Assembly (NCBI GenBank): GCA_021646405.1
Contig: SOER01000008.1
Span: 1-64,000 of the forward strand
Length of the DNA stretch: 64,000 nucleotides
Reading direction: 5' to 3'
Source: Candidatus Loosdrechtia aerotolerans
GTDB taxonomy: Bacteria > Planctomycetota > Brocadiia > Brocadiales > Brocadiaceae
Part shown: positions 371-12,090 of the stretch, piece by piece
Position numbering within the stretch: the first letter of the stretch is position 1
How the letters are laid out: every line of letters starts with the position of its first letter
Position numbers and translations under genes: made by a program
Notes under the pieces: generated by a model
The model's input: only the letters and a program-made list of their open reading frames with translations
Told to the model about the DNA's origin: nothing
Database searches by the model: none

Positions 371-452
371 TGAAATAGTATTTAAATTTGCGAAGCATCA
401 TTGTGTAGTTTATATACAGGGGAACGTTTAAATAAAAAGGAGGAAAGATCAC

Positions 453-1481
453 ATGGAAGGCTTAAAGCTGTTTGCAAAGTTTCGTCGTTCGCAGGGGCTG
501 TTCGTCCTGCTGGCATTGTTTTCCTTCGTTCCGGGGATCCCGTCTCTGTTTGCAGACGGACCAAAAAGGACAATGGAAGGATCTGAAGCTGTAGTTGGGG
601 GCCCGGCATCAGAAAGAGGAATGGCACCGGGTTGGTCCAGTGGACATAAACATGCAGAGGTCTCTTCTGAAATTTGTTTAGATCATGAAGACTGGGAAAA
701 GATACAGCGCGCCGTCCACGAGACGGTAGAGCACCACCTTATCGGAAGAAAATTTATACAGGTTTACGGTCCGCTCGGGGCCGGTGCACAGAGCGTACCA
801 CTCGACACCTATGACCTCCCTTCCTGGGCAAATATCGATATGCTCGGTGAGGCAAATTCTGCCGTCCATCCTTTAAAGAGGGATATTATTCCCATACCAC
901 TCATTTATAAGGATTTCTGGCTCTTCTACCGTGACATTGCGGCTGCGAAGAAGTGCAACATTCCCCTTGACTTAAGCGTTGTTACCGGGGCTGCCGCTGC
1001 CGTCTCGAAGAAGGAAGACGATCTCATTTTCAACGGCTCCCCGGAAATGGGTATGCCGGGGCTGCTCAATGCAGAGGGCAGAAATGTTATGGAAATAAGT
1101 GACTGGTCAATCATAGGTAATGGTTTTCAGGATGTTGTGGATGCGGTTGAAAGGCTTATTAATATCGGGTTTAGCGGTCCGTTTGCCCTTGTAGTAAGTC
1201 CGAGATTATACGCCTACCTCCATCGTGTATATGAGCGAACCGGACAGCTGGAGATAAAAGGGGTAAAAGAACTGGTAAAGGGGGGAGTATATCAGAGCAG
1301 TGTTTTAAAAAGGGACGTTGCTATTGTCGTTGCGATGGGGAGGATGAACCTGGACCTGGCGGTAGGTGCCAATTACAAAGTCGAATATTGGGGCTCGGAA
1401 AACCTGAACCATCGTTTCAGGGTTGTAGGAAGTTCGGTGCCGAGGATCAAACGTCCGCAAGCAATTTGTGTCCTGGAGTAA
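453..1481 (+). CDS. Encapsulin shell protein (HK97 fold) with N-terminal signal peptide
   Basis: This is a family-1 encapsulin: the subunit of an icosahedral protein nanocompartment that encloses a redox enzyme. Residues 1-34 look like a Sec signal peptide, with a basic start, the hydrophobic core LFVLLALF and a probable cut at LFA|DG. Residues 35-68 form a Gly/Ser/Ala-rich linker. Residues about 70-342 (about 272 aa, the usual shell length) match the encapsulin pattern, including HEDWEKIQRAV, GRKFIQVYGPLG and the terminal VPRIKRPQAICVLE. There is no CXXCH haem motif in the linker. The start is supported by GGAGG 9 nt upstream. The gene is followed after 3 nt by the NIR-HAO fusion, the cargo type reported for anammox encapsulins. 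Most encapsulins are cytosolic, so the export signal is unusual. My inference is delivery to the anammoxosome lumen. Identity is confident; location is inferred. Confidence 0.93.
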   Translation: MEGLKLFAKFRRSQGLFVLLALFSFVPGIPSLFADGPKRTMEGSEAVVGGPASERGMAPGWSSGHKHAEVSSEICLDHEDWEKIQRAVHETVEHHLIGRKFIQVYGPLGAGAQSVPLDTYDLPSWANIDMLGEANSAVHPLKRDIIPIPLIYKDFWLFYRDIAAAKKCNIPLDLSVVTGAAAAVSKKEDDLIFNGSPEMGMPGLLNAEGRNVMEISDWSIIGNGFQDVVDAVERLINIGFSGPFALVVSPRLYAYLHRVYERTGQLEIKGVKELVKGGVYQSSVLKRDVAIVVAMGRMNLDLAVGANYKVEYWGSENLNHRFRVVGSSVPRIKRPQAICVLE

Positions 1482-1484
1482 GCA

Positions 1485-4103
1485 ATGGTATCTCAATCAA
1501 TCTGCCCGCAGCAGCACCATTTGGGTAACCGCAAGTTTCAACTCATAAAAAATTTTGTATCCGGAATAGATATGGCAATTATCAGGGCATCCCTGAAAAT
1601 GAGGTTAGTGATGGTATCGGGAATTGTATTCTTTTGTCTTTTTGCACTATCCTCCAACGGATATACCGGAATTCCTTACCATCCGGAAGAAGACGGTGTC
1701 GTTTATCTGGAAATGGAGGCACGTCCGGTATCTCTTGAGATCAGGCACGGCGTGTTTTTCGATGCCTGGGGATACTGCATGAAAGGGGAGGTACCCGCCG
1801 TACCGGGCCCTGTCATAAAGGTAAAGGAAGGAACCAGGGTAAAGATCCGTCTTACCAATATATTACCGGTCTCTACCTCCATCCACCCCCACGGGGTAAA
1901 GTATACCGCTGCACACGACGGCGCCCATGTTGCAGGAAACCCTGCCAGTATTGTTGCATCCGGATATTCAGGGGTTTTTGAATGGAATACCTCGGATACA
2001 GCAGGAACGTGGTTTTACCATCCCCATGTGTTTGAAATGGGAGGTGAAGAAGGGGTATCCAGAGGATTATGTGGCGTACTTATTGTAGAACCAGAGGAGG
2101 CCGACTCTCATCCACCCGATAAAGAGTTTGTAATCTTCATGCATACGTTTTACAGTAAGGGAAAGGAATACAGGACATTTAACGGTAAGTCCGGCGACAG
2201 AGAGTTTGTGAGTGGTGATACTTCGGCTTTTCCCGGTCTTGTCCTGAGGGCAAACGTGGGGGAAAGGGTAAGGTTCCACCTCGTTAATTCAGATACAGAG
2301 GCGCATACCTTTCATATCCATGGTCACCGGTGGAAGGACAGGGGTAGCGGAGAACTTACTGACAGTATATCGGTAGCCCCGCTTACCTCATATGTACTGG
2401 ATTTTATTGCCGGAGAAGGTGTCGGGCCCGGCAACTGGACCTTTCACTGTAACCCCGGTGAACGCGTTATAAATGGTATGTCCGGAGTCCTTGTGGTAGA
2501 AAAAGAACGGGAGAAGGGTGTTGTGGAAACATCTCCGCCTATCCTTGGGATTCCTCCCGCTTCGTTTACCTATCCTGACCCGTCACTGAAAAAGATGTAT
2601 GAAGATTATGTGGGCCTGGTGCAGGGTGACGGTCCCTTTGGAGAATTTTATCAACCCATTCCGTTTTATTTGTATTTTAATCCGGCCAGGCACTATATCC
2701 CGCCCGACAGCCCTGCCTATGAAAAACTCCTGAAAAAATATAAACCCGATCAGTGCGTGGAGTGCCACGAAGAGGCAACACCCGGTATTGTCGAACAGTG
2801 GAAGATGTCCACCCATGCCAGTCCCAAAAAGAACCCGAAAACCGCCGGAGAAACAAGAGAGATAGAGGAACTCATTGGAAAGGAAATCCATAACTGGAAA
2901 CCGGGGACAAAGGGTGGTGTCTACTGTTCCTACTGCCACGGTGACGATCACAGGAATCTCTTTATGCCTACAGTGGACAACTCGTGCGGTATCTGTCATC
3001 CGAAACAGGCGATGGAGTTTGCAAAGGGCAGGGATTACGGCAAACCCAATCATCCTCAAAGCTGGGAAGGGGGGTTGTCTACGCCGTGGTATGTCGAGAA
3101 TTACCGGCGTGGTGAAGGCCCGGCGATGGTAGGATGTGATCAGTGTCATCAAAATATGTCATCATGCGATGACTGCCATGGCCGCCATCTCTTTTCTGTT
3201 GCGGAGGCACGCCGTCCGGAGGTATGTTCGGGCTGCCACATGGGGCCCGATCATCCCGACTGGGAGAGTTATATCCATTCTAAATGGGGAATCATGTATG
3301 AGATCTCCGGTGATACGTGGAACTGGGAAAAGAAACTCTCTGAGGTCATCCCGGGGAAGGATTATCCCGCACCTACCTGCCAGTACTGTCATATGTACGT
3401 GGGGAACGGTCGCTGGGAGATGAATGTAGAGACCAAAGGCATATGGCGTATGGGGGTTATTCCTCCCAAAGAGGTAGAATTCAAATCCAGCCTGAAAAAC
3501 TTTCCCTATGGTATAACAATACCACCGATGGATAAGAAGCTGGAGATCTACTCTCCGGAAAGCCTTGCAAGGCGCAGCTACTGGATAGAGCTCTGTACAA
3601 AGTGCCATAGTAACCGGTTTTCAGGCATGTGGCTGGATTCCCTGAATGAATACATGTTCACTTCATGGAAGCGGATTGACGAGGCACAGCTCATCCTGGA
3701 GGAACTGTTTGCCAATGATATGGTAAAACCCTCTCCGGAAGATAGACCGCCTTTTCCGTTAAGCGATTTAATAGTAAAAATCCTTGGTTCGGAGGGCCTG
3801 GGTCCGGAGGTGTACAATCTCTTTCAGAAAACCAACGGGCACCTGCCCATAATAGGTCCCATACTGGGAGCATATACGGTATTCAGTGAGAAGGACGGCA
3901 ACCCGGGCGGGATAGAGAGGATGTATGGTGAAATGTGGTTTTGGTATCACCTGCAGGGGTACAAAGGAACGGCCCATGCCCAGCAGGATATAAGCTGGTG
4001 GTGGGGTACATCGCAGGCCATGGGAAGCCTGACACGTATACAGGATCAGGCGGTACTCTTAAAACGTTTAAAGGCTCTTGAGGATGCCATCGGAAAAGAC
4101 TAG
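1485..4103 (+). CDS. NIR-HAO fusion: cupredoxin nitrite reductase-like plus octaheme HAO-like, probable encapsulin cargo
   Basis: Exported fusion enzyme of 872 aa. A hydrophobic segment near residues 41-57 is the export signal. Translation may start at Met1 (GGAG just upstream, overlapping the encapsulin stop) or at Met30. Residues about 65-345 are two cupredoxin domains of the multicopper oxidase/NirK superfamily, with H134-P-H136, H179-P-H181, HTFHIHGH at 274-281 and HC at 321-322. Residues about 400-860 carry exactly eight CXXCH haem-c motifs, from C424 to H708 (the fourth at 551-555), which is the octaheme hydroxylamine oxidoreductase layout. Y723, after haem 8, is in the region where HAO carries its haem-crosslinking Tyr, but I cannot align it. 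Family knowledge suggests nitrogen-oxide or hydroxylamine redox chemistry; the direction is not settled. No separate Gly/Pro-rich C-terminal cargo-loading peptide is obvious. Part of the type 1 copper site appears to be missing. Confidence 0.92.
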   Translation: MVSQSICPQQHHLGNRKFQLIKNFVSGIDMAIIRASLKMRLVMVSGIVFFCLFALSSNGYTGIPYHPEEDGVVYLEMEARPVSLEIRHGVFFDAWGYCMKGEVPAVPGPVIKVKEGTRVKIRLTNILPVSTSIHPHGVKYTAAHDGAHVAGNPASIVASGYSGVFEWNTSDTAGTWFYHPHVFEMGGEEGVSRGLCGVLIVEPEEADSHPPDKEFVIFMHTFYSKGKEYRTFNGKSGDREFVSGDTSAFPGLVLRANVGERVRFHLVNSDTEAHTFHIHGHRWKDRGSGELTDSISVAPLTSYVLDFIAGEGVGPGNWTFHCNPGERVINGMSGVLVVEKEREKGVVETSPPILGIPPASFTYPDPSLKKMYEDYVGLVQGDGPFGEFYQPIPFYLYFNPARHYIPPDSPAYEKLLKKYKPDQCVECHEEATPGIVEQWKMSTHASPKKNPKTAGETREIEELIGKEIHNWKPGTKGGVYCSYCHGDDHRNLFMPTVDNSCGICHPKQAMEFAKGRDYGKPNHPQSWEGGLSTPWYVENYRRGEGPAMVGCDQCHQNMSSCDDCHGRHLFSVAEARRPEVCSGCHMGPDHPDWESYIHSKWGIMYEISGDTWNWEKKLSEVIPGKDYPAPTCQYCHMYVGNGRWEMNVETKGIWRMGVIPPKEVEFKSSLKNFPYGITIPPMDKKLEIYSPESLARRSYWIELCTKCHSNRFSGMWLDSLNEYMFTSWKRIDEAQLILEELFANDMVKPSPEDRPPFPLSDLIVKILGSEGLGPEVYNLFQKTNGHLPIIGPILGAYTVFSEKDGNPGGIERMYGEMWFWYHLQGYKGTAHAQQDISWWWGTSQAMGSLTRIQDQAVLLKRLKALEDAIGKD

Positions 4104-6502: not shown

Positions 6503-7153
6503 TTATACAGGACGGACATAAATATCCCGTGCAATTGCAGTGTCAAGTGCAATTTGAGTCTCACCCATCTGGATAACATAGGTTGGCTGCCTTTGGCAGA
6601 GCTGAATTGTAACACCTGGTAATAAACCGATAGAAGAGAGCTTATCTAACCGTTGAAGATGTTTTGTTGCCAGGTAGAATATCTTCGCTTTTTCTCCGGA
6701 CCTTAACTCTGTTAATGGCATTACAACAGGCCTTATCTTTGCACTTGCTTTTTCACAACAGTCACTCGGTGGAATAGCCTTCCCGTGAGGGCAACTGAGG
6801 GGATGACCTAACAATGTGCATATGCTGGTTATAACCTCTTTATCAAGAAAATACTTAAATTTACACGCACCAGCGTTCATGGTATCCCCTTTCACCGGAA
6901 AAATATCGTTCAACAATCTCTCTGCGAGCCGGTGCCTTCTGACAATCAATCGGGCGTCTGCTTCACCTTTTCTGGTAAGTATTACTTTTGAATTATGTAT
7001 CGTAATATAACCCTCTTGAATAAGTGTCTTTATTTGACGCTCTGCTTCCGGAAGGTTTATTCCCTTGAGCAATACATCTTCTTCAACAGAGTCATTTTCA
7101 TCTTCCATTGTCCATATGAGCTCCAGAACTTTTTCTAAACTCGTTTCATTCAT
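6503..7153 (-). CDS. DtxR/MntR-family metal-dependent regulator with FeoA domain
   Basis: A winged-helix repressor of the DtxR/IdeR/MntR family that senses Fe2+ or Mn2+. From the start MNETSLEKVLELIW, residues about 1-70 form the helix-turn-helix region (GYITIHNSKVILTRKGEADA). Residues 71-140 are the dimerisation/metal domain, with RHRLAERLL, the ligand-rich MNAGACKF and a Cys/His cluster HPLSCPHGKAIPPSDCCEK. Residues 147-216 are an SH3-like FeoA domain (MPLTELRSGEKAKIFYLATK ... ALDTAIARDIYV). The frame extends 14 residues further upstream to 7195, but MNET at 7153 has a purine-rich GAAGGGAAA upstream and fits the family better. The gene is preceded by a promoter overlapping an inverted-repeat operator (7339-7393), which suggests autoregulation. 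The same kind of box lies at 8184 and 9733. Confidence 0.88.
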   Translation of the reverse strand: MNETSLEKVLELIWTMEDENDSVEEDVLLKGINLPEAERQIKTLIQEGYITIHNSKVILTRKGEADARLIVRRHRLAERLLNDIFPVKGDTMNAGACKFKYFLDKEVITSICTLLGHPLSCPHGKAIPPSDCCEKASAKIRPVVMPLTELRSGEKAKIFYLATKHLQRLDKLSSIGLLPGVTIQLCQRQPTYVIQMGETQIALDTAIARDIYVRPV

Positions 7154-7338
7154 AACTAAGATTTCCCTTCTTTGATAAATCCAAAACATATCCAAACATG
7201 CGGCGCAGCAACCACATGTCTTTTTTCTCTCATACTACTGCAACTTCCCAACACTTTGAACCCTGAACCTTGAACCTGGGTCTTGAATAATTACAGTTAT
7301 TTAATCCAGCCTCTGTTTCGAAAAGAAAAAACACTACT

Positions 7339-7393
7339 TGAGACTAAAACTGAGTCTCACTATGGATTGTAAAGTATTTATCTCTTTAATCAA
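7339..7393 (-). promoter_or_regulatory. Promoter and operator ahead of the DtxR/FeoA regulator
   Basis: On the minus strand, TTGATT (7393-7388) and TACAAT (7371-7366) are 16 nt apart. They are followed by the perfect 7-bp inverted repeat TGAGACT-N7-AGTCTCA at 7339-7359, placed at the expected transcription start. The same layout, a promoter followed by a TGAG...CTCA box over the start site, occurs at 8152-8200, 9695-9749 and 45615-45664. The 5' leader would be about 200 nt. Confidence 0.6.
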
Positions 7394-7637
7394 AACATTT
7401 CTCAATAACTCCGGATGACGGGAAAAATAATTGTCGTTAGACAGGAAAAATAGTTGACGCCGGACACCTTTTGTTATCTCGTTCCAACGTGGACAGGCTG
7501 AGTCAAATGGATTCTTTTGTCTTAAAAGTGGGGAACATTACTTATAAATTACCCATTTTATCTTAAATATATTGCTAAATCCCTCTTGGGAGAGTAATAA
7601 GAAAATCTCCTCTCAGGAGGGGATTTAGGGGCATATG

Positions 7638-7832
7638 CATCAAGCTAAGGAATAATGCGATACTCTTTTCTGATCCTCACACAAAGCCACAAAGGCACAA
7701 AGATACCAGGATATATGGTATGTCCCTATTTTGTGTTCCTGACATCCTATCCTTCATCCTTCATCATTCTTTATTCTTTTTATTCTTAATGTCTCTGTGT
7801 CTTTGTTTGAGGAAAAGTACCTTCGCTTGATG
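7638..7832. repeat. ~190-bp dispersed repeat with inverted ends, copy 1
   Basis: The ends are ATCAAGCTAAGGAA and CCTTCGCTTGAT. The interior carries CACAAAGCCACAAAGGCACA, then a TCCTTCATCATTC block and GTCTCTGTGTCTTTG. The interior of the copy at 45781-45942 is inverted relative to the same flanks. A third copy is at 57889-58075. Fragments of the 290-bp element family follow at 7833-7915. The remainder of 7394-8151 has no supportable gene. Confidence 0.7.
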
Positions 7833-8151
7833 GTATAGGAATTTTCATTTTATGTAAGCGGGTTTGCGGGGAGGTGTAATTATAAGGGTAATGAGGGCAA
7901 TATATTACTATAATGTTTCTTTCTGTTCATGGGAAGAAGGAGAAAAGGTATATGAAGACAGAAGAGGTGAAGGGGGGAAGAGCCATTCGGCCCTCCCCAA
8001 AAGGAGTACAAATACCGTTGTTTCGTATAAGATGCTCTCTTAACACCATGAAAAGACGGGATTCTTCATAGTTATTTCTTTAATCAAAAATATTCCTCAA
8101 TTTATAACTACTATCATATCAGATACATAGGACATATTTTATAATTTTCTG

Positions 8152-8200
8152 TTGACCTGAGGTGTTTTTTTGTTTATGTTGATTGAGAATGAGTCTCAGT
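8152..8200 (+). promoter_or_regulatory. Promoter with Fur/DtxR-like operator ahead of DUF2325 gene
   Basis: TTGACC (8152-8157) and TATGTT (8175-8180) are 17 nt apart. They are followed by TGAGAATGAGTCTCA (8184-8198), an inverted repeat with 5-bp arms that closely resembles Fur-type iron boxes and would cover the start site. The downstream gene has a strong AAAGGAGG ribosome site. This is a likely iron-repressed promoter. The nearby DtxR/FeoA protein is the natural candidate regulator, although a Fur protein elsewhere is possible. Confidence 0.7.
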
Positions 8201-8241
8201 AAAATAATAAACCTGGTAAAATTATAAAGGAGGTAAGTCAT

Positions 8242-8556
8242 ATGTCGGTACTTATAGTAGGAGGCGATCATTTAGGAAGTATCCCAAAGGAACTCGATAA
8301 AATAGGCGTTAATGACGTCCGGCACATTACCGGAAGGAGCGGGCAGAAGGTCCATGACGGTATTCCGGAAACCATGGACTTTGTTATCGTACTCTACGAC
8401 TTCGTCAATCATAACCTTGCACACAAGATAAAAAAAATTGCTGAAGGGAGAGGCATCCCCATCGTGTATGCAAAAAGATCATGGTCATCCGTTTACCAAA
8501 AGATGAAGGAAAGCCAGAAGCAGTTACGAAACATTGGATTACAAGCCCTGGCATAA
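8242..8556 (+). CDS. DUF2325 domain protein, probably iron regulated
   Basis: A 104-aa protein that is essentially one DUF2325 domain. It starts MSVLIVGGDHLGSIPKEL, a Rossmann-like beta strand and glycine turn. It contains DVRHITGRSG and VIVLYDFVNHNLAHKIKK, and ends with IPIVYAKRSW. The biochemical function of the family is not established. The start follows AAAGGAGGTAAGTCAT. It is monocistronic, with a consensus promoter overlapped by an iron-box-like operator (8184-8198). The position next to a DtxR/FeoA regulator links it to metal homeostasis by context only. Confidence 0.85.
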   Translation: MSVLIVGGDHLGSIPKELDKIGVNDVRHITGRSGQKVHDGIPETMDFVIVLYDFVNHNLAHKIKKIAEGRGIPIVYAKRSWSSVYQKMKESQKQLRNIGLQALA

Positions 8557-8798
8557 CGGTTCACGGTAATAGAGTGCATTATGGTAAATCAGCCCTTTTT
8601 TGTTTTCTGGAAAAAGTTTTTGAGAGGTAACGGAGCTGTTTGTAAAAAATTTACTACAAAAGAGGAGGGATAGCCTGAGATGGCCGGGAGTTTAGTGTTA
8701 AAAGTGGCATGGATAAAACGGCCTTTTTATCATAAATGAATGCCTGTTTATCTATGCCATCCTGATTCTGTTTATAACCCGAGATAAAAAGCATAGAA

Positions 8799-10562: not shown

Positions 10563-10704
10563 AAGGAGGTGGTAACCGGCATTGAACATCTGAAACAGGA
10601 AAAGGTGTACAATCGTATGAATCCGGGAATGAGTGCTGGGTGGAATGACCCGCACCCGGACCTGAACAGTAAGGTATCTTTTGGAAAAGGAGTCAAATAA
10701 AGAA

Positions 10705-12090
10705 ATGAAGAAGGTACTAAAGCAAGTAAGAGATAAGTTGAAAAAGGGGCGTAAGGCCGTCTCCGGGTTTACGCTTATCGAGATGTTAGCGGCAATCGGC
10801 GTGGCCGGTATCCTTGGAGGCATCGTCACCCCGGCAGCCATTAATTCCCTGGCAAAATCAAGGCAGGCCAAATGCGCTGAAAACCTCAGGCAGTTTGGTA
10901 CTGCACTGGTGCAGTATGTGAATGATACAGGGGTGTATCCCCCGTCAGCCGTAGATGTAACAGGTGACGCCGGTATGGAGGTACGCCAGAGATGGTTTAA
11001 CATCCTCTCACCGTACATGGGTGCAGATGAGCGTGCCCGCACTAATGCCCAGGGTGCTACAGGCACATCCAATAACCTTGGAGATTTAGACCAGTCTGTC
11101 TTTACCCGCGCCTTCATATGCCCGGAAGTAGAGGGTGAGTGGAAGATCGGGAGGAATAACTCCTATGGTTATAACCACCAGTACCTTGGAAATGCACGAT
11201 CAACGGATCCACTTGTTGATACAACAAGAACTGCGGGGAGAAAGAAGAATGGTAGGGTTAACTTCCCTGTAACAATGGCTGATTTGAAGGATCCAACAAG
11301 GACTATTGCCATTGCAGATACGGATGGTACAGGACACCTCGGTCCTTATCGCGACCCAACGACAATGATATCTGGTGAGAGTACAGGCGGTGCATTAACG
11401 TTCTCGGCTACTGGAAATGGTCAAGATAGTTGGTCTGCTGGCTCTATAATAGCGAATAGGCTATCAACCCTTGGTAACGAAGGATATCAGATCGACCCGA
11501 CATTCCTCCCATGCCGCAACCTTACAGATCCCACAAATGATACTACCTTCGATGCACCGGATGATATCTGCGGTGCGGCAGGTGGTAGCAGCCGTCATTG
11601 CCAGGCAGCCCGGGGCGTTGTAAGTAACCGGCATGATGGCGGTGCAAATGTATGCTTTGCCGACGGACACGTAGAGTACTTTACCCGAGAGGCTGTATAT
11701 ATACATCCAACAACCGGCAGGCCTTCCAACAGATTATGGAATGGCTACGGAAGGGATAATGATGAAGATGGAAACGGGATTGTAGCACTGAATGACCCGA
11801 TCTATGACAGTAACGAATGGATCTGCGACCTGAATGGGAACGGGATTGCAGATGCAGGAGAGGCAAATACTGTTATCGGATCCGATATAGATGGCCCTCT
11901 AGGAGGATGGATGGGGGAGGATAACAGCGGCTTCCTGCTTGGCAGCAATGAACTCAATTCTGCTACTGAGATAGTAAATGCACGTGGTGGTATGGCAGAA
12001 GAGGCATTGGTACTTGATAAAGACGGTCCGACAATACCGAAACGGGTTCCTTTCCCGCTCATCGCTACCGTACTGGCCCAAAGCGAATAG
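10705..12090 (+). CDS. GspG/DUF1559-like prepilin with H-X9-DG motif
   Basis: Type II secretion/type IV pilin-like protein. A basic leader is followed by the prepilin peptidase site and helix GFTLIEMLAAIGVAGILGG, with the expected Glu at +5 of the mature protein. The classic planctomycete signature H-X9-DG is present as HDGGANVCFADGH. The C-terminal third carries acidic repeats such as DEDGNGIVALND and DLNGNGIADAGE, likely calcium binding and similar to those in the GspK-like protein at 32077. The frame could start at TTG 10681, but ATG 10705 is preceded by AAAAGGAG. The glycosyltransferase genes that follow suggest that it, or its system, is glycosylated. The likely role is structural subunit of a pseudopilus or surface fibre. 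Confidence 0.85.
   Translation: MKKVLKQVRDKLKKGRKAVSGFTLIEMLAAIGVAGILGGIVTPAAINSLAKSRQAKCAENLRQFGTALVQYVNDTGVYPPSAVDVTGDAGMEVRQRWFNILSPYMGADERARTNAQGATGTSNNLGDLDQSVFTRAFICPEVEGEWKIGRNNSYGYNHQYLGNARSTDPLVDTTRTAGRKKNGRVNFPVTMADLKDPTRTIAIADTDGTGHLGPYRDPTTMISGESTGGALTFSATGNGQDSWSAGSIIANRLSTLGNEGYQIDPTFLPCRNLTDPTNDTTFDAPDDICGAAGGSSRHCQAARGVVSNRHDGGANVCFADGHVEYFTREAVYIHPTTGRPSNRLWNGYGRDNDEDGNGIVALNDPIYDSNEWICDLNGNGIADAGEANTVIGSDIDGPLGGWMGEDNSGFLLGSNELNSATEIVNARGGMAEEALVLDKDGPTIPKRVPFPLIATVLAQSE

Follow-up and report, generated by a model that had tools for sequence, protein, structure and literature searches.

Does the encapsulin gene at the start of this contig encode a shell protein destined for export and, if so, where would the shell be built and around which cargo? 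The window—the whole 64,000-nt stretch analysed, which begins at base 1 of its contig—had been described in a first-pass annotation as carrying an encapsulin fitted with an export signal. The anatomy of the open reading frame (ORF), its Shine-Dalgarno site and homologous signals in other Brocadiales all argue for that reading (Table 1).

Table 1 Features of the encapsulin locus and its surroundings (window coordinates).
Feature	Position	Strand	Remarks
Shine-Dalgarno AGGAGG	438..443	+	9 nt 5' of the ATG; similar GGAGG-like site in 16 relatives
Encapsulin ORF, 342 aa	453-1481	+	From ORF and translation
Sec-type signal peptide (predicted), residues 1-34	453..554	+	Basic n-region, hydrophobic core 16-26, predicted cut after A34
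Mature N-terminal linker, residues 35-74	555..674	+	Lacks CXXCH; of low complexity and predicted to be disordered
Family 1 encapsulin (HK97-fold) shell domain, residues 75-342	675..1478	+	Pfam, NCBIfam, EncA and Foldseek matches
NiR/multicopper oxidase (MCO)-HAO fusion (NiR-HAO)	1485..4103	+	8 CXXCH, N-terminal signal; expected cargo
DtxR-type iron-dependent regulator fused to FeoA domain	6503..7195	-	Candidate regulator
DUF2325 protein	8242..8556	+	Putative link to shell, by family only

The first 34 residues of the predicted protein (MEGLKLFAKFRRSQGLFVLLALFSFVPGIPSLFA, followed by D35-G36) hold four basic residues, with a net charge of +3 ahead of the core, and reach a peak 11-residue Kyte-Doolittle mean of 3.00, a value attained in 21 of 5000 shuffled versions of residues 1-40. 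By comparison, the shell domain does not exceed 2.28, and values near the starts of Planctomycetota encapsulins from outside the Brocadiales range from -0.05 to 1.24. The basic start, hydrophobic core and LFA|DG cut site that the annotation had listed are present, and the predicted cut is plausible, though, with Leu at -3, it falls a little short of the SFA, VFA or AFG sites seen in relatives. A Tat signal was rejected, the RR at residues 11-12 having no Tat consensus behind it and being missing in relatives, as was a lipoprotein signal, given that the window protein has no Cys at +1.

Comparison with relatives is better evidence for the signal than the shuffle statistic. Aligned under BLOSUM62, the window signal scored 22 to 66 against 11 of 12 relatives' signals and 1 against that of genome G417, with shuffled controls at a mean of -18 (sd 10). 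A GGAGG-like site and an ATG open the signal in the window gene and in 16 Brocadiales homologues; one homologue (G029) has no in-frame ATG at the signal and was disregarded in the comparison of N-terminal hydrophobicity. None of 13 encapsulins from other Planctomycetota had a hydrophobic N-terminus—they start at the shell—and among the Planctomycetota sampled the encapsulin signal is confined to Brocadiales. Judged by these alignments, the signal is homologous across Brocadiales encapsulins.

Behind the signal, the linker proposed earlier is found, albeit with about 40 residues (35 to ~74) instead of 34: shell matches begin at residue 75 or 76, the first shell helix begins at 78, and an AlphaFold2 model gives a pLDDT below 50 for residues 20-72 and confident values for most of the shell. 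It occupies the position at which relatives carry a diheme cytochrome c module. No CXXCH occurs in the whole encapsulin ORF, confirming that this form has no cytochrome. The shell domain is normal, as the annotation had it: complete and EncA-like by profile (Pfam Linocin_M18, 6.5e-59; the Family 1 equivalog NCBIfam NF041155, 240 bits with a cut-off of 100), by sequence (Myxococcus xanthus EncA, 2.6e-73) and by predicted structure, EncA chains being the top Foldseek matches of the model (E 3.4e-34; TM 0.88-0.91 by target length). A shell above the curated cut-off and a dedicated cargo gene next to it in a conserved pairing both fit Family 1. Sequence statistics and homology point to an N-terminal Sec-like signal of the kind found in cytochrome-fused anammox encapsulins (cEnc); with no CXXCH in the ORF, and hence no N-terminal diheme cytochrome c, we do not file the protein as one of them.

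The NiR-HAO gene begins 3 nt after the shell gene, encodes an N-terminal hydrophobic signal of its own, and adjoins the shell gene in nearly all relatives. The C-terminal cargo-loading peptide that is usual, but not universal, in Family 1 was not found on NiR-HAO, the C-terminus of which can be aligned over its whole length with that of free HAO paralogues. Such peptides are reported to be often missing from anammox encapsulin cargo (PMC6934571), so this does not exclude Family 1 membership. With respect to the copper site, the HCH...H motif reads HCNPGERVINGM at residues 317-335 of the window cargo, and it also deviates in G015, G008, G010 and G055. As two His are replaced in the window cargo, its NiR half may not work as named, and several lineages may have a 'nitrite reductase' half without catalytic activity.

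The setting is that of an anammox bacterium, as annotated, with the NiR-HAO gene next to the shell gene and hydrazine synthase alpha in the genome (HZS_alpha, 3.5e-28). All 11 Brocadiales genomes examined for this marker have it, counting that of the window, and 10 of them bear an encapsulin; the marker is not perfectly specific, since the more distant genome G102 gave a weak, half-length match. G001, a single-contig genome from the same genus, holds neither the shell nor the full NiR-HAO fusion, and the system is thus dispensable. A DtxR-FeoA fusion like that of the window also accompanies the encapsulin cluster in a Scalindua genome (L040, 10584-11270) and is a possible regulator of the cluster. 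Myo-inositol-1-phosphate synthase recurs by the cluster at L036 4435-5679 (Pfam-checked), L038 9112-10362 and L040 3707-4966 (both by resemblance). The DUF2325 family has been named as a possible secondary cargo in anammox encapsulin loci (PMC6934571). The window further encodes a prepilin-like protein (GFTLIEMLAAIGVAGILGG; 10681-12090), of a type common in Planctomycetota.

An encapsulin was found in 20 of the 62 Brocadiales genomes searched; two relatives came from a contig scan and the remainder from whole-genome searches. In 12 of the 20, the signal is separated from the shell by a CXXCH module, which has two motifs in eleven genomes and a single one in G026; six have signal and linker only (the window, G015, G033, G043, G055 and G417). 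In one genome (G021) the two forms stand in tandem, bringing cytochrome-less, signal-bearing shells to seven of the 20 genomes, and in one (G028) the gene is too broken for its form to be assigned. The haem module is restricted to f1, the window's own family; encapsulin-bearing genomes of f2 and f4 are all haem-less. In the tandem pair of G021, an intact haem-less shell gene precedes a cytochrome-fused one that is cut by the contig end (L036, 718-1719 and low end), while another contig of that genome (L054) holds a shell end and NiR-HAO; the haem-less shell is 97% identical to that shell end over 378 nt. In G022, a truncated shell copy immediately after a thioredoxin-like gene and ahead of the cytochrome-fused shell (L044, reverse strand, offsets 6852-8794) is probably the remnant of such a tandem arrangement.

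Cytochrome-less anammox encapsulins were previously listed for Scalindua rubra, Scalindua SCAELEC01 167, Brocadia caroliniensis and RIF 50_42 (Tracey 2019, PMC6934571), of which the latter two were not identified among the relatives compared. The former two were recognised by the fit of gene details. G417 matches the published description of S. rubra (PMC6934571) in its 306-residue GTG ORF, an ATG 63 residues on and an MCO gene directly following it; G055 matches SCAELEC01 167 in its inositol-phosphate synthase, NiR-HAO, encapsulin and NirK with VPAGCAAV. Whereas signal and shell share one ORF in G055, the signal of G417 (MIIVRNEKILDVVKGTTIVFAFIVSCLVFIGGIGNYAFGNG...) follows a GGGAGG just upstream of the shell ORF in another frame, the end of which overlaps the beginning of the shell frame by about ten bases. 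In this presumed S. rubra (L104, reverse strand, 544-703), a frameshift, either real or a sequencing error, detaches the shell from its signal and linker. What was reported as a 'hypothetical protein' at Scalindua encapsulins (PMC6934571) very probably corresponds to such a signal with its linker.

When shell trees were rooted with signal-less encapsulins, Scalindua branched first (100/99) and G043 next (94/87 or 87/86, moderate support for this step), both haem-less and both outside all haem-bearing forms; clades were named after the trees had been seen. Neither the haem-bearing forms (AU p 0.0028) nor the haem-less forms (AU p 0.0040) were accepted as a single clade. With haem-less, signal-bearing shells branching first, export seems older than the haem domain. 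In the simplest reading, the signal was gained on the stem and the haem module later within f1, followed by loss or exchange of the N-terminus. The window shell grouped with G033 of f2 (91/88) and its cargo with G005/G012/G017 of f1 (100/99); in each case the alternative was rejected (AU p 0.00017 in both). Given these different nearest relatives, shell genes probably moved between anammox lineages. A viral or plasmid origin was discarded: viral contigs held no relative and plasmids only distant encapsulins.

These observations suggest a route in which export serves the cargo. Since the attachment of c-type haems follows translocation, NiR-HAO has to be exported, and it would use its own signal to reach the far side. 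A shell already closed in the cytosol could not take up the exported enzyme, and we propose that exporting the unfolded subunit solves this problem, the shell going where its cargo matures. The encapsulin subunit would pass Sec unfolded and, once across the anammoxosome membrane, shed its 34-residue signal; the HK97-fold shell would then assemble there round the neighbouring octaheme enzyme, and the compartment may serve in the oxidation or detoxification of hydroxylamine or NO. We assign this reading a probability of roughly 0.75. There is precedent in encapsulins fitted with secretory signals, which form shells within the exocytic pathway of mammalian cells, and the N-terminus faces the interior in known encapsulin structures (PMC8229669), which would put the ~40-residue linker on the inner face beside the cargo, as the annotation had supposed. 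Loading is the weakest step, because the cargo has no extra C-terminal peptide and the published suggestion that the cytochrome domain recruits cargo (PMC8229669) cannot apply to a haem-less form. Export was probably already in place when other Brocadiaceae acquired a diheme module between their signal and shell. The wider scenario, in which ancestral export predated the cytochrome fusion, shells assemble in the organelle after Sec passage, and some species build mixed haem-bearing and haem-less shells from tandem genes, we hold tentatively, at slightly less than even odds.

Several other readings of the N-terminus deserve weighing. Translation might instead begin at in-frame ATGs (M41 or M57) and yield an ordinary cytosolic encapsulin like those of other Planctomycetota, which start at the shell, the upstream part being untranslated. 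Yet the best Shine-Dalgarno sequence is the one in Table 1, no well-spaced one was found at later in-frame starts of this ORF, signal and Shine-Dalgarno are conserved in Brocadiales, and the cargo has to be exported to receive its haems, making a downstream start very improbable. Homologues starting below the signal had been named as the finding that would overturn the export claim; the readable Brocadiales starts all lie upstream, after a Shine-Dalgarno site, and the apparent exception, S. rubra, has its signal in the next frame. Almost as improbable is an uncut signal anchor that would hold the shell at the lumenal side of the anammoxosome or cell membrane: a core of such hydrophobicity could anchor and the window site has Leu at -3, but relatives have clean cut sites immediately ahead of D/N-G or of the point where the cytochrome begins, the short core is followed by Pro-Gly, and anchors lining the interior of a closed shell would presumably interfere with assembly. 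The destination could also be the periplasm instead of the anammoxosome; the sequence does not tell, and anammox Sec signals are not known to separate the two clearly. Published proteomics, however, reported encapsulin in isolated anammoxosomes (PMC6934571), and every genome with the haem-less form carries hydrazine synthase; we regard the periplasm as improbable, though a shade less so than the anchor.

A further alternative concerns origin and is compatible with export: the haem-less form may be a recently broken cytochrome-fused shell, perhaps needing a haem-bearing partner. The near-identical shells of the G021 tandem and the position of G015 next to haem-bearing G008 in the shell tree speak for it, but Scalindua and G043 fall outside the haem-bearing set, the window holds no haem-bearing shell paralogue, and the diheme module has no clear relative elsewhere in the window genome (best E 0.066). 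On balance, such recent breakage seems unlikely, if less so than any of the readings above that rival anammoxosome export. A separate diheme cytochrome acting in trans was rejected as well, the best matches in the genome (E 0.066 and 0.23) being unconvincing.

That the window form differs from the cytochrome-fused one stands; that export of anammox encapsulins would be new does not. For cytochrome-fused anammox encapsulins, a Sec-like signal and shell assembly within the anammoxosome had been proposed in 2021 (PMC8346489), and cytochrome-less forms had been listed in 2019 (PMC6934571). Within the open-licence literature searched, we found no description of a signal on the cytochrome-less form, of its probable ancestral status or of the tandem pair; new within that literature are cytochrome-less, signal-bearing shells that branch first, the reading of the Scalindua 'hypothetical protein'—for which an explanation is now offered—and the tandem pair. 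In the published account, export is linked to the maturing of the fused cytochrome, while haem-less, signal-bearing shells at the base suggest that export serves something else, the simplest purpose being to meet a cargo that matures only beyond the membrane. The locus is also a compact natural system for testing the assembly of HK97-fold shells after Sec translocation.

Compared with known systems, M. xanthus EncA and the encapsulins of other Planctomycetota are alike in shell fold and sequence (about 42-44% identity) but lack the N-terminal signal and are presumed cytosolic; EncA cargo bears loading peptides, whereas no extra C-terminal peptide was found on the window cargo. The cytochrome-less encapsulins of Tracey 2019 (PMC6934571) resemble the window form in having no cytochrome and a NiR-HAO or MCO cargo, although that text leaves a signal peptide unmentioned and the Scalindua gene order differs from the window's. 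With the freshwater cEnc, the window protein shares the shell domain, a homologous Sec-type signal as predicted from sequence, NiR-HAO as the next gene and an anammox host; where cEnc has its diheme CXXCH module, the window protein has the linker instead.
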